NCBI GenBank assembly: GCA_024330185.1
Contig: JANDLV010000003.1
Coordinates: 62,001 to 126,000, forward strand
DNA length: 64,000 bases
Direction of reading: 5' to 3'
From: Candidatus Siliceabacter maunaloa
Lineage (GTDB): Bacteria; Actinomycetota; Thermoleophilia; Solirubrobacterales; Solirubrobacteraceae
The position numbers were made by a program, and so were the translations under genes. Every line of letters begins with the position of its first letter. The first letter of the stretch is position 1. The notes beneath the pieces are model-generated. The model saw nothing but the letters and a program-made list of their open reading frames with translations. It did not search any database and was not told the DNA's origin. This document shows positions 414-43,765 of this stretch, piece after piece.

Positions 414-3400
414 CTACTCGCCGTCCTCCTGGCGCACGGGGGGAGCACCGACCACGTCGACGACCTCGCCCTCGAACTCGTCCGCACGCGGAGGCCTGCC
501 GTTGGTGGCGGCCGACTCCTGCGCGGCCAGCTCGGCCAGCACGCGCTTGTAGTCGGTCGGGAAGACCTTGACGAAGCGGGGCAGGATCGCGTCCCAGCCG
601 TCGAGTAAGCGCCGTGCGACCGGCGAGTCGGTGCGCTCCAGGTGCTCGGCCACGAGCGTGCGCAGCTCGATGGCGTCGGCCTCGTCGAGCTCCTCGATCT
701 GGTCGGCCATCGCACGGTTGATGCGCGAGCGGAAGAGCCCGTGCTCGTCGAGCACGAAGGCCAGGCCGCCGCTCATCCCCGCGGCGAAGTTGCGCCCGGT
801 CTTCCCGAGCACCACGACGCGACCGCCGGTCATGTACTCGCAGCCGTGGTCGCCCACGCCCTCGATGACCGCGCTCGCGCCCGAGTTGCGCACGGCGAAG
901 CGCTCGCCTGCCATCCCGCGGAAGAACGCACGGCCGCTCGTGGCGCCGTAGAGCACGGTGTTGCCGATGATCACGTTGTTCTCGGCCGCGAAGCCCGCGC
1001 CGTCCGGCGGCACGACCGCCAGGGTGCCGCCCGACAGGCCCTTGCCCGTGTAGTCGTTGGCCTCACCGTGCAGGGTGAAGGAGATGCCCGGGGCCAGCCA
1101 GCCGCCGAAGGACTGCCCGGCCGAGCCGCGCAGGGTGACCCTGATGGTGTCCTGCGGCAGCCCGTCCGCGCCGTGGGCGGCGGCGATGTGACTGGAGAGC
1201 ACCCCGCCGACGCAGCGGTGCACGTTGCGCACCGCCGTCTCGATCTCCACCGGCTCGCGGCGCTCCAGCGCCGGCCCGGCCTGCTCGATCAACGACCAGT
1301 CCAGATGATCGTCGAGCACCGGGTCCTGCCCGCGCACGCGCCGGCGTGGCGCGTCGGCGGCCAGCGGCGGCTGGGCGAGGACGTGGGTCAGATCGACGCC
1401 GCGCGCCTTCCAGTGCTCGATGGCCCCGTCGGCCTCCAGCAGGTCGGTGCGCCCGATGAGCTCGTCGACCGACCGGACGCCGAGGGAGGCCATGATCCGG
1501 CGCGCCTCCTGCGCGACCAGGAAGAAGAAGTTGACCACGTGCTCGGGCGTGCCCGTGAAGCGCTTGCGCAGCTCGGGGTCCTGCGTGGCGATGCCGACCG
1601 GGCAGGTGTTGAGGTGGCAGGCGCGCATCATGATGCAGCCCGTCGCGATCAGCGGGGCGGTGGAGAAGCCCATCTCGTCGGCGCCCAGCAGCGCGGCGAC
1701 GATCACGTCGCGCCCCGTCTTGAGCTGGCCGTCGGTCTGCACGGTTATCCGGGAGCGCAGGTCGTTGCGCAGCAGTGTCTGCTGGGTCTCGGCAAGGCCG
1801 ATCTCCCATGGCACGCCTGCGCACTGGATGGAGCTCAACGGCGAGGCGCCCGTGCCGCCGTCGTGGCCGGAGATGAGCACGTGGTCGGCATTGGCCTTGG
1901 CCACGCCCGCAGCCACCGTGCCCACGCCCACCTCGCTGACGAGCTTGACCGACACCGAGGCCCTCGGGTTGGAGCAGCGTAGGTCGTAGATGAGCTGCTT
2001 GAGGTCCTCGATGGAGTAGATGTCGTGGTGGGGCGGCGGGGAGATGAGACCGACGCCGGGCGTGGTGTGACGCACCCCCCCGATGTAGTCGTCGACCTTG
2101 TGGCCGGGAAGCTGCCCCCCCTCCCCGGGCTTGGCGCCCTGGGCCATCTTGATCTGGAGTTGGTCGGCGTTGACCAGGTAGTGGATGGTCACGCCGAACC
2201 GCCCGGAGGCCACCTGCTTGATGGCCGAGCGGCGGTCGTCGGTGAAGCGCACCGGGTCCTCGCCGCCCTCGCCCGTGTTGGACTTGCCGCCCAGGCGGTT
2301 CATGGCCTGCGCGAGGGTCTCGTGGGCCTCGCGCGAGATGGAGCCCAGCGACATCGCGCCGGTGGAGAAGCGCTTGACGATCTCCGAGGCCGGCTCGACC
2401 TCGTCCAGGGGCACCGGCTCGACCGCGCCGGTGGCGAACTTCAGCAGGCCGCGCAGGGTGGCCCGCCGCGACGCGTCGTCGTTGACCATGGCCGCGTACT
2501 CGTCGTACTTGTCGGGCGCCGAGCCGTTCGCGCGGACGCTGTGCTGCAGCGCGGCGATCGTCTCGGGGTTCCACATGTGGTGCTCGCCGTCGCGCCGCCA
2601 CGCGTATACGCCGCCCACGGGCAGGAGCTCCTCGTGGGAGACCGGGTAGGCGCGCACATGGCGGTCCAGCGTCTCGCGGGCCAGCACCTCGAGCCCGATG
2701 CCCCCGATGCGCGAGGCGGTGCCGGTGAAGTGGCGGTCGATCAGGTCCCTCTCCAGGCCGACCGCTTCGAAGATCTGCGCCCCGCAGTAGGACTGCGTGG
2801 TGGAGATGCCCATCTTGGAGATGGTCTTGAGCAGCCCCTTGCCGATGGCCTTGACCACGTTGCGCTGCGCCTCGCCGTCGCTCTCAACGCCCGGTACGCG
2901 CCCCTCGAAGACCAGCTCGTCGACGGAGTCGAGCATCAGGTAGGGGTTGATCGCGCTGACGCCGTAGCCGATCAGCGTGGCCATGTGGTGGATCTCGCGC
3001 GGCTCGCCGGACTCGAGCACCAGCCCACAGCGCAGGCGCGTGCCCGCGCGCACGAGATGGTGGTGCACGGCGCCGACGGCCAGCAGCGAGGGGATCGCCA
3101 CACGGCGCTTGCCCATCCGCCGGTCGCTGAGGATGAGCACGTTGACCCCGATCGCGAGCGCGTCGTGGGCCTCGTCGCAGATCTCGGCCAGGCGGCGCGC
3201 AAGCCCCTCCGGACCGTGCTCCACAGGCCAGGTGATGTCCAGGGTGTGCGCCTTGAAGATGTCGTGATCGACGTGGCGCAGCGTCTCGAGCTCCTGGTTG
3301 CGCAGGATGGGCTGGTCGAGCACGAGCTGGTGAGCGTGCCGGGGCGACTCGCTGAGCAGGTTGACCTCGCCGCCGATCGCGCCGGCCAGGCTCATCACGA

Positions 3401-4991
3401 CATCCTCGCGGATCGGGTCGATCGGCGGGTTGGTCACCTGGGCGAAGAGCTGCTTGAAGTAGTTGAACAGCGGGGGGCACTGGTCGGAGAGCACGGCGAG
3501 GGCCTGGTCGTTGCCCATCGAGCCGATCGGCTCAGCGCCCGTGGCGGCCATGGGCGCCAGCAGCACCCGCAGATCCTCCTGCGTGTAGCCGAAGGCCAGT
3601 TGGCGCAGCCGGGTGGGCTGCACGCCGGTCATGGTCACGTGCGCGGGCTCGAGGTCGGAGAAGTGGACCGTGGCCTCCTCGTGCCAGCGCCCGTAGGGCC
3701 GGCGGGTGGCCACCTGCTCCTTGACCTCCTCGTCCTCGACGATGCGCCCCTGCTCGAGGTCGACCAGGAAGAGCTTGCCCGGCGCCAGGCGGCCCAGGCG
3801 CGCGACGTTGGCCGGGTCGATGTCCAGGAGGCCGGCCTCGGAGCCCAGCACCACCACGCCGTCCCTAGTCTCCACCCAGCGCCCCGGGCGCAGGCCGTTG
3901 CGGTCCAGGGTCGCCCCCACCACGCGCCCGTCGGTGAAGGCCACCGCGGCGGGGCCGTCCCACGGCTCCATGAGGCAGGAGTGGAAGGCGTAGAAGCCCC
4001 TGAGGTGGTCCGGGATGTCGTCGCGGTCCTTGTAGGCCTCGGGGATCATCATCATCGCCGCGTGGGGCAGCGAGCGCCCGCCGAGCATGAGCAGCTCGAG
4101 CACGTTGTCGAAGGTGGCCGAGTCCGACCCGCCGGGGCGCACGATCGGCATGACCTTCTGCAGGTCGACGCCGAACAGCTCGCTGGCGAGCTGGCTCTCC
4201 CGCGCGCGCATCCAGTTGATGTTGCCCATGAGCGTGTTGATCTCGCCGTTGTGGGCGATCACGCGGTAGGGATGGGCCAGCTCCCAGCTCGGGAAGGTGT
4301 TGGTCGAGAAGCGCGAGTGCACGAGGCACATCGCGCTGGCGAAGCGCTCGTCGACCAGGTCGGGGAAGAACCCGCGCAGCTGGTGGGAGATGAGCATCCC
4401 CTTGTAGACCAGGGTGCGGCTGGACGACGAGGCGATGTACAGGTCCGGCCCGCTGGCCAGCTCGCACACGCGACGGATGACGTAGAGCTTGCGCTCGAAG
4501 CGATCCTGGTCGGCTTCGAAGCCCGGCCCGGCGCCCACGAAGAGCTGGCGCATGACCGGGCGGCAATGGTCGGCCGTGGAGCCCACGTGGGTGGGATCGA
4601 CCGGCACGTCGCGCCAGCCCAGCAGACGCTGACCCTCCACGCGCGCGTTGAGCTCGAGCAGCTCCTCGAGCTTGCGCCGGCGGGAGCCGTCACGGGGCAG
4701 GAAGCACTGCAGGACCCCGTACTGGCCGGCGGGCGGCAGCTCGAAGTCGACGGCGTGACGCAGGAACGCGTCGGGCATCTGCACGAGGATCCCGGCGCCG
4801 TCGCCCGTCAGCGGGTCGGCGCCCGCGGCCCCGCGGTGCTCGAGGTTCTCCAGCGCGGTCAGGGCGTGAGCGACCACGTCGTGGCGCGGGTCGTTGTCCA
4901 GCCGCGCGACGAGGGCGACGCCACAGGCATCGTGCTCGTAGCGCGGGTCGTAGAGGCCAGCGGCCTCCGGGCGGCGAAGGTGGAAGCTCAT
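414..4991 (-). CDS. gltB: Glutamate synthase large subunit
   Basis: At 1525 residues this is the normal length for the alpha subunit of bacterial glutamate synthase. An N-terminal glutamine amidotransferase domain begins after a short propeptide, with the predicted nucleophile Cys at residue 23 ([12 protein letters not shown]). It is followed by the central domain, the FMN/2-oxoglutarate synthase domain ([26 protein letters not shown]), the 3Fe-4S cysteine run ([15 protein letters not shown] near residue 1140) and the C-terminal GXGXG beta-helix. Ammonia freed from glutamine is channelled to the synthase site. It heads a gltBD operon and is divergent from the anti-sigma genes; the 420-base spacer upstream contains palindromes and strong hairpins. 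No defect is seen. Confidence 0.98.
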
Positions 4992-5127: not shown

Positions 5128-5180
5128 CACGGGTTTTGGTGGCGTTTGGACTCGTCGCGCTGGGGTATCGTTGCCGTCAT

Positions 5181-5289
5181 CGGGAACGATTCCCGTATAT
5201 CCACCGCGTGGTAGTGCCGGACTTCCCTGCCTCGGCACACGCGGTGGCCCCACACTGCGTCGAGGCGCCTTCCCCCAGGCGCCTCGACG
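5181..5289 (+). ncRNA. Candidate structured small RNA (three consecutive stem-loops)
   Basis: No convincing reading frame covers this spacer, but it holds three strong stems in a row. Stem 1 is CGGGAA/TTCCCG (5181-5186 with 5190-5195). Stem 2 is CCACCGCGTG (5201-5210) with CACGCGGTGG (5238-5247), enclosing an inner GTGCCG/CGGCA pairing. Stem 3 is a perfect 13-bp pairing of CGTCGAGGCGCCT (5258-5270) with AGGCGCCTCGACG (5277-5289) around a TCCCCC loop. A TATCGT hexamer at 5166-5171 could be a -10 box for plus-strand transcription. The plus strand is an inference: on the minus strand the same stems would be a gltB leader. I do not recognise it as a known RNA family. Confidence 0.5.
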
Positions 5290-5348
5290 TGTGTCTGGGG
5301 CCGGCGTCCGTGACGGGCGCGTGAAAAGGCGGGGCGCCGGGCAGCATG

Positions 5349-5409: not shown

Positions 5410-5820
5410 TTGACTGACAGTCCTGACCTCGAGCTGACCCTGCCGGCGCGCGCCGAGAACGTCGCGATCGTCCGCCATGCCCTTGGTGGCCTCGCCGAGG
5501 TACTAGACGTCGACGAGCAGGCGCTCTCGGACATCCGCCTCGCGGTGACCGAGGCATGCACGAACGTGGTCGTCCACGCCTATCCCGACGGCGAGGGCCC
5601 GCTGCACGTCAGCGCCCTGCTCGACGGCGACGACCGGCTGACCGTGATCGTGCGCGACGAGGGGCGCGGCATCGTGCCCCGGGCCGACAGCCCGGGCCTC
5701 GGGCTGGGCCTGCCACTCATCGCCACGCTGACCGAGGCACTCGAGCTGGGCAAGGACGACGACGAGCACACCGAGGTGCGCATGGTCTTCCGCCTCGCCC
5801 ACGGCGACGAGGACCGATGA
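5410..5820 (+). CDS. Anti-sigma regulatory factor, GHKL ATPase/Ser-Thr kinase fold (RsbW/SpoIIAB type)
   Basis: A 136-residue protein with the HATPase_c fold of anti-sigma kinases such as RsbW. These bind a sigma factor and can phosphorylate a STAS antagonist. Visible motifs are the N-box (VTEACTNVVVHAYP, residues 46-59), a G1 box (VRDEGRGI) and a glycine-rich GLGLGLPLI segment. The start is TTG, since no ATG or GTG fits the conserved N-terminus. Its stop overlaps the next start by ATGA. A STAS protein follows at 6321, giving the classic partner-switching set. The probable target is the SigB/F-type sigma at 10604-11410 (inference). Confidence 0.85.
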   Translation: MTDSPDLELTLPARAENVAIVRHALGGLAEVLDVDEQALSDIRLAVTEACTNVVVHAYPDGEGPLHVSALLDGDDRLTVIVRDEGRGIVPRADSPGLGLGLPLIATLTEALELGKDDDEHTEVRMVFRLAHGDEDR

Positions 5821-6320: not shown

Positions 6321-6689
6321 ATGCCGCCCGAGTTCGCCGTCCTGGAGGAGGAGCTGTCCGCCGATCGCCACGTCGTGGCCGTCCGCGGAGAGATCGACCT
6401 CTTCACCGCCCCCGAGCTCAAGCAGACGCTAACCGACGCCATCGAGCGCGGGCGGACCCGCATCGTCGTCGACCTCGGTGAGACGACGTTCCTGGACTCG
6501 ACCGCCCTGGGCGTGCTCATCGGCGCGGTCAAGCGCCTGCGCACCCACGACGGCGCGCTGGCCATCGTCAACACCGACGCGAACATCGCCAAGACATTCG
6601 AGATCACGGGCCTCGACCAGATCTTCACCATCGTCGCCTCGCGCGACGAGGCCATAACGGCCCTCGACGGCGACGCCGCGGTGTCCTAG
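6321..6689 (+). CDS. STAS-domain anti-sigma factor antagonist (RsbV/SpoIIAA type)
   Basis: A single STAS domain of 122 residues. The family signature is clear: VDLGETTFLDSTALGVLIGA (residues 50-69), with Ser60 at the position phosphorylated in SpoIIAA/RsbV. The N-terminal strand carries the usual VAVRGEIDLFTAPEL. The dephospho form should bind the anti-sigma factor and free sigma. It lies 120 bases downstream of the two anti-sigma genes on the same strand. Starts earlier in the spacer have no STAS similarity, so ATG 6321 is chosen. Confidence 0.9.
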   Translation: MPPEFAVLEEELSADRHVVAVRGEIDLFTAPELKQTLTDAIERGRTRIVVDLGETTFLDSTALGVLIGAVKRLRTHDGALAIVNTDANIAKTFEITGLDQIFTIVASRDEAITALDGDAAVS

Positions 6690-43534: not shown

Positions 43535-43765
43535 GCCTCGCGACAGAGCAAATGCGAGGTTGGGGTGCCGGATCGTGGATGCCCAGGGCCACACGATTCC
43601 GCCGTCGATACCGGTCGTATCGACAAGGAATCGGGTGGCTTTGGGCGCCGCGAGACGGTGCCCCGACCCCGCAGTTGCTCTGTCGTGGGCTCTTAGCCCG
43701 GTCGTGTCCCGTCCCCGGTCCCAGGGGCCGGGGGCGGTCTCTCACGGCGACGCCGTCCAGCGGCC

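Follow-up and report, generated by a model that had tools for sequence, protein, structure and literature searches.

A candidate structured small RNA behind a SigB/SigF-type promoter between gltB and an anti-sigma factor gene of Candidatus Siliceabacter maunaloa

What is the function of three strong stem-loops that stand in tandem, with no gene, between gltB and a set of anti-sigma genes in the soil-type actinobacterium Candidatus Siliceabacter maunaloa? We addressed this question in a 64,000-nucleotide (nt) stretch of contig JANDLV010000003.1 (positions 62,001 to 126,000 of the forward strand, assembly GCA_024330185.1), which we call the window, and in genomes of related bacteria. An initial annotation of the window had listed the stem-loops as a candidate small RNA (sRNA), had left the strand undecided and had proposed a covariance search in related genomes as a check. 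The reading that we favor, with a probability of about 0.6, is that the locus specifies a free-standing, trans-acting sRNA of ~120 nt that would be transcribed from the + strand under the control of a stress sigma factor and would act by pairing with Shine-Dalgarno (SD) sequences.

Stem-loops, covariation and transcribed strand

All three stems of the initial annotation, of 6, 10 and 13 bp, are present (Table 1), as is an inner helix of the second stem, GTGCCG/CGGCAC (5214-5219/5233-5238), that was absent from it. The 156-nt fold of this region (5155-5310) has a computed stability of -95.4 kcal/mol on the + strand (z = -7.1) and of -91.3 kcal/mol on the - strand (z = -6.5), and 0 of 200 shuffled sequences reached such a stability. 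The three stems are not the product of chance. When 984 stretches of 130 nt were scanned across the window the locus accounted for ranks 3 and 4 by fold z-score, with rank 1 held not by the sRNA locus but by a dispersed palindromic repeat. A near-perfect palindromic hairpin at 43545-43690 (fold z -12.6) has six further sites in the genome at 71-91% identity, occurs also in genomes G007, G015 and G018, and is a dispersed palindromic (REP/MITE-like) element.

Similar DNA occupies the same place in the nearest congener (L002). From the family we then took orthologues of the anti-sigma gene; gltB diverges from this gene at each of the 30 loci examined, as the initial annotation had correctly described for the window (gltB on the - strand, the RsbW-like gene from ~5410 on the + strand). 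Inspection of the gltB/anti-sigma gaps gave clear RNA homologues in eight further genomes, and the nine copies were aligned with MAFFT from sequence only, with no fitting to structure (alignment A2). A 27-pair model structure placed on this alignment has 94.1% of its pair cells paired, a percentage that is biased in its favor by the derivation of the structure from the same nine sequences, and slid-structure controls gave 20-47%. Double compensatory changes occur in 12 of the 27 pairs and in 16 cells, compared with shuffled means of 3.9 and 4.6, and none of 500 shuffles was as high; relatedness may inflate such shuffle tests, and the number of doubly changed pairs is the sturdier measure. These compensatory changes, beyond those of shuffles and in an alignment independent of structure, mark the RNA as a new conserved structured family. 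The alignment also has 29 G-U cells versus 3 A-C cells, which indicates that the RNA is read from the + strand because its G-U pairs would read as A-C on the opposite strand. Judged from these comparisons, it is very likely that the locus gives rise to a conserved structured RNA transcribed from the + strand. The covariance check therefore turned up compensatory changes in relatives, the candidate sRNA gains support from this strong covariation, and the strand is settled as + by the pair counts and by the promoter described below.

Promoters and RNA architecture

A promoter of SigB/SigF type, GTTT-N15/16-GGGNAT, is found 6-12 bases upstream of the first hairpin (P1) in nine of nine copies, with degenerate forms in one copy that has GTTC...GGTCAT and in one that has GGGTAC. 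Promoters of Streptomyces SigB homologues are alike, for example GTTTCC-N13-GGGTAT and GTTTCG-N14-GGGCAT (PMC8346170). The TATCGT hexamer that had been placed 10 bases before 5181 is indeed there (5166-5171), and is better read as overlapping a SigB-type -10 element, GGGTAT (5163-5168). A scan of the locus for the sigma-70 consensus found no promoter, as expected for a promoter of another type. Judging from the conserved SigB/F-type promoter upstream of each copy, the RNA is probably under SigB/F-type control, as a member of a SigB/SigF regulon would be. The genome (3.79 Mb) has just three sites of the exact form GTTT-N15/16-GGGTAT: at the sRNA locus, in an apparent 16S rRNA stretch, and before the gene of a secreted-looking protein. 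The last site (L133, 1501-1525) lies ~50 bases before this gene, whose product seems to carry a signal peptide, and the gene is a possible further member of the regulon.

A SigB/SigF/SigG-family sigma factor, the candidate activator, is encoded 5-6 kb from the sRNA. The ANTAR-domain protein that had been reported nearby is also confirmed, ~5 kb away, with the sigma and ANTAR genes together at ~10.6-12.1 kb. Downstream of the RNA the anti-sigma operon has a conserved SigB-like promoter of its own; the GTGAAA-N12-GGG form precedes 10 of the 30 anti-sigma orthologues, and a GTGAAG form precedes 3 more. This element shares its form with Streptomyces SCO6014p (PMC8346170) and suggests that the anti-sigma operon is autoregulated from its own SigB-like promoter.

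In regards to the extent of the RNA, the end at 5289 given initially is about right, and the start at 5181 is too late: the position of the promoter puts the likely transcript start at ~5175, and the 3' limit is estimated from the last hairpin. In the apical loop of the second hairpin (P2) the alignment shows CCUGCY in eight of nine copies, and this loop is mostly unpaired in eight of nine by computation, not by probing. The linker that follows reads ACCUCCCCCACA in the eight copies other than that of the window, includes the anti-Shine-Dalgarno core CCUCC, and has a mean unpaired value of 0.79-0.99 (again computed, not probed) in six of the nine. In the window copy the P2 loop (mostly) and the P3 loop UCCCCC are predicted to be open. 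The third hairpin (P3) is long and GC-rich, is followed in most relatives by a short imperfect tail containing U, and is likely the 3' end or terminator hairpin.

Table 1. Coordinates of the sRNA locus and of neighboring genes in the window
Feature	Coordinates	Strand	Sequence, size or basis
SigB/SigF-type promoter	5144-5168	+	GTTT (5144-5147) - N15 - GGGTAT (5163-5168); upstream of all nine copies
sRNA body, inferred limits	5175-5297	+	~120 nt; covariance model 64 bits at 5202-5294
Stem 1	5181-5186 / 5190-5195		CGGGAA / TTCCCG, 6 bp
Stem 2	5201-5210 / 5238-5247		CCACCGCGTG / CACGCGGTGG, 10 bp
Stem 3	5258-5270 / 5277-5289		CGTCGAGGCGCCT / AGGCGCCTCGACG, 13 bp
Hairpin P1, 5' end	5181-5195	+	hairpin here in all nine copies, sequence varies
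Hairpin P2	5201-5247	+	outer 9-bp helix, 5'-side bulge, inner 6-bp helix; covariation in both helices
C-rich apical loop of P2	5220-5232	+	GACUUCCCUGCCU
Linker, shortened in window copy	5248-5255	+	CCCCACAC; alignment and accessibility prediction
Hairpin P3	5258-5289	+	loop UCCCCC; 12 aligned pairs, 5 with double changes
SigB-like promoter of anti-sigma operon	5321-5344	+	GTGAAA - N12 - GGGCAG
gltB	414-4991	-	
RsbW/SpoIIAB-like anti-sigma factor	5410-5820 (start approximate)	+	NCBIfam/Pfam, HATPase_c_2
Anti-sigma factor antagonist, STAS	6321-6689	+	
SigB/SigF/SigG-family sigma factor, candidate activator	10604-11400 (start approximate, inside 10604-12001 open reading frame)	-	TIGR02980, 256.7 bits, above cut-off

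Distribution and alternative explanations

Among 146 genomes of the family the covariance model found exactly nine strong members (E 4e-17 to 4e-9) in three genera. The same search of a class sample (299 genomes) and a phylum sample (396) gave no convincing further members, with the limit that it scores few candidates per genome and that diverged members may escape it. Eight weaker matches were inspected; they have no such promoter and resemble terminator hairpins or coding DNA. The exact linker pattern gave three Solirubrobacterales/Conexibacter matches among named genomes, and its other matches are scattered across unrelated phyla and were taken as chance. On the tree of the anti-sigma protein the presence of the RNA requires three changes, and the RNA may nevertheless have a single origin. 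In genome G103 (L035), of the RNA-bearing genus g8, an intact gltB/anti-sigma gap of ~199 bases has no RNA, which would reflect loss or relocation.

In eight of nine genomes the RNA lies a short way before the anti-sigma gene and on its strand. This position, together with the absence of a strong terminator T-run at the locus, would also fit a cis-acting 5' leader (an attenuator or long untranslated region) that is made from the SigB-type promoter in one transcript with the anti-sigma operon. We consider this unlikely, given that genome G008 has RNA and promoter turned round together with respect to the anti-sigma gene, which indicates that RNA and promoter are one unit independent of that gene. 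Moreover, in the window, G001 and G107 a second SigB-like promoter separates the RNA from the anti-sigma gene, and the majority of orthologues of this gene are not accompanied by the RNA.

Similarly doubtful is a structured sRNA whose partner is not mRNA but a protein, such as RNA polymerase or a regulator that binds RNA. The great stability of the structure, the ANTAR protein gene ~5 kb away and the loss of the linker seed from the window copy speak for it, whereas there is no 6S/Ms1-like match in Rfam, the A1/G4 hexaloops of ANTAR targets are absent, and the most conserved unpaired bases form a C-rich strand as is typical of mRNA seeds. Less probable still is that the stems are DNA palindromes that are never transcribed, or a terminator that works in both directions. 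The window does contain palindromic repeats (at 43545-43690), but a genome search at E <= 0.001 returned no second copy of the sRNA locus, the stems have double compensatory changes with G-U pairs on one strand only, a conserved promoter lies upstream, and the divergent flanking genes need no terminator.

Proposed mechanism and comparison with known RNAs

In the trans-acting sRNA that we favor, stress would lead a sigma factor of SigB/SigF type to transcribe the RNA. This is probably the factor under the control of the adjoining anti-sigma genes, and we infer the dependence from the promoter type and the neighborhood. The C-rich loop or loops and the linker would base-pair with target mRNAs at ribosome-binding sites rich in G and so block their translation under stress, and P3 would terminate the transcript. 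An unpaired C-rich seed, as an SD-pairing trans-acting sRNA should have, is predicted, candidate complementary target sites do exist in the genomes, and if the remainder of this explanation holds then SD pairing is somewhat favored. Several observations weigh against it. The linker of the window copy, CCCCACAC, is predicted to be paired (0.04 unpaired) as well as shortened, which leaves the P2 or the P3 loop as the seed, if this copy has one, and the linker is partly paired by prediction in G112 and G001 too. A canonical terminator U-tract was looked for after P3 and none was found at the locus. Sites of the form TGGGGGAGG-N3-10-ATG number 34 in ~34 Mb of RNA-bearing genomes versus 24 in ~39 Mb of others, which is not a clear enrichment, and just nine copies are known, confined to three genera.

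Pairing could also be much broader. At the P2/linker junction most copies have GAUGACCUCC, one base off GAUCACCUCC at the 3' end of 16S rRNA. This near match raises the idea of a general anti-Shine-Dalgarno decoy that, under stress, would vie with ribosomes for a large number of mRNAs together instead of for a few targets; we regard such a decoy as very unlikely.

Comparison with known RNAs gave nothing relevant in Rfam, at gathering and relaxed thresholds, for both strands of the window and for the relatives, and no article about sRNAs from this actinobacterial group turned up in the literature collection searched. Membership in any named RNA family is not supported, and the RNA is a previously uncatalogued family for which Rfam has no entry at the locus. 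The initial annotation had named 6S and ANTAR-target RNAs for comparison, and neither fits. There is no Rfam match to 6S, and the locus has three separate hairpins, not a long rod with a central bubble. ANTAR-target RNAs, whose two stem-loops both carry a hexanucleotide loop with A1 and G4 (PMC8164766), are alike in their tandem stem-loops and here in the nearby ANTAR gene, but the paired A1/G4 hexanucleotide loops are missing, with loop size and sequence varying across the nine copies.

The 6C RNA (RF01066) is alike in part. Its hairpins have C-rich loops, as do P2 and P3 within the genus to which the window belongs; the window copy and G001 have C-rich loops in both hairpins, and the P3 loop is not consistently C-rich in the others. 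The 6C RNA is unlike in that the conserved C-rich strand here is mainly the linker, in a different gene context, and there is no gathering-score match to 6C at the locus, in the window or in the relatives. A search of 61 genomes gave six sub-threshold 6C matches, none at the sRNA locus, and three of four that were inspected resemble tRNA or coding DNA. Genome G008 has two tandem hairpins with C-rich loops (L065, ~1500-1573, - strand) that are a sub-threshold 6C match distinct from the sRNA.

In its mode of action the RNA is likely a C-rich sRNA that is controlled by a stress sigma factor and pairs with SD sequences, for which there are two working precedents that are not relatives. RsaA of Staphylococcus aureus is a sigma-B-dependent C-rich sRNA that pairs with a Shine-Dalgarno sequence (PMC3961350); the RNA described here resembles it in its probable sigma-B-type control and in a C-rich segment able to pair with SD, and differs in that it is from an unrelated bacterium, has no sequence or family match, and has only candidate targets. 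SfdS/F6 of Mycobacterium tuberculosis is a SigF-dependent sRNA with a dominant form of 58 nt (PMC8557902), and is likewise an actinobacterial sRNA behind a SigF-type promoter, although its dominant form is of that size, its locus is different and the RNA here has no Rfam match. Provided that the promoter is read correctly, the RNA would directly link a partner-switching stress-sigma system to post-transcriptional control, a parallel to RsaA and SfdS from a distant class of actinobacteria.
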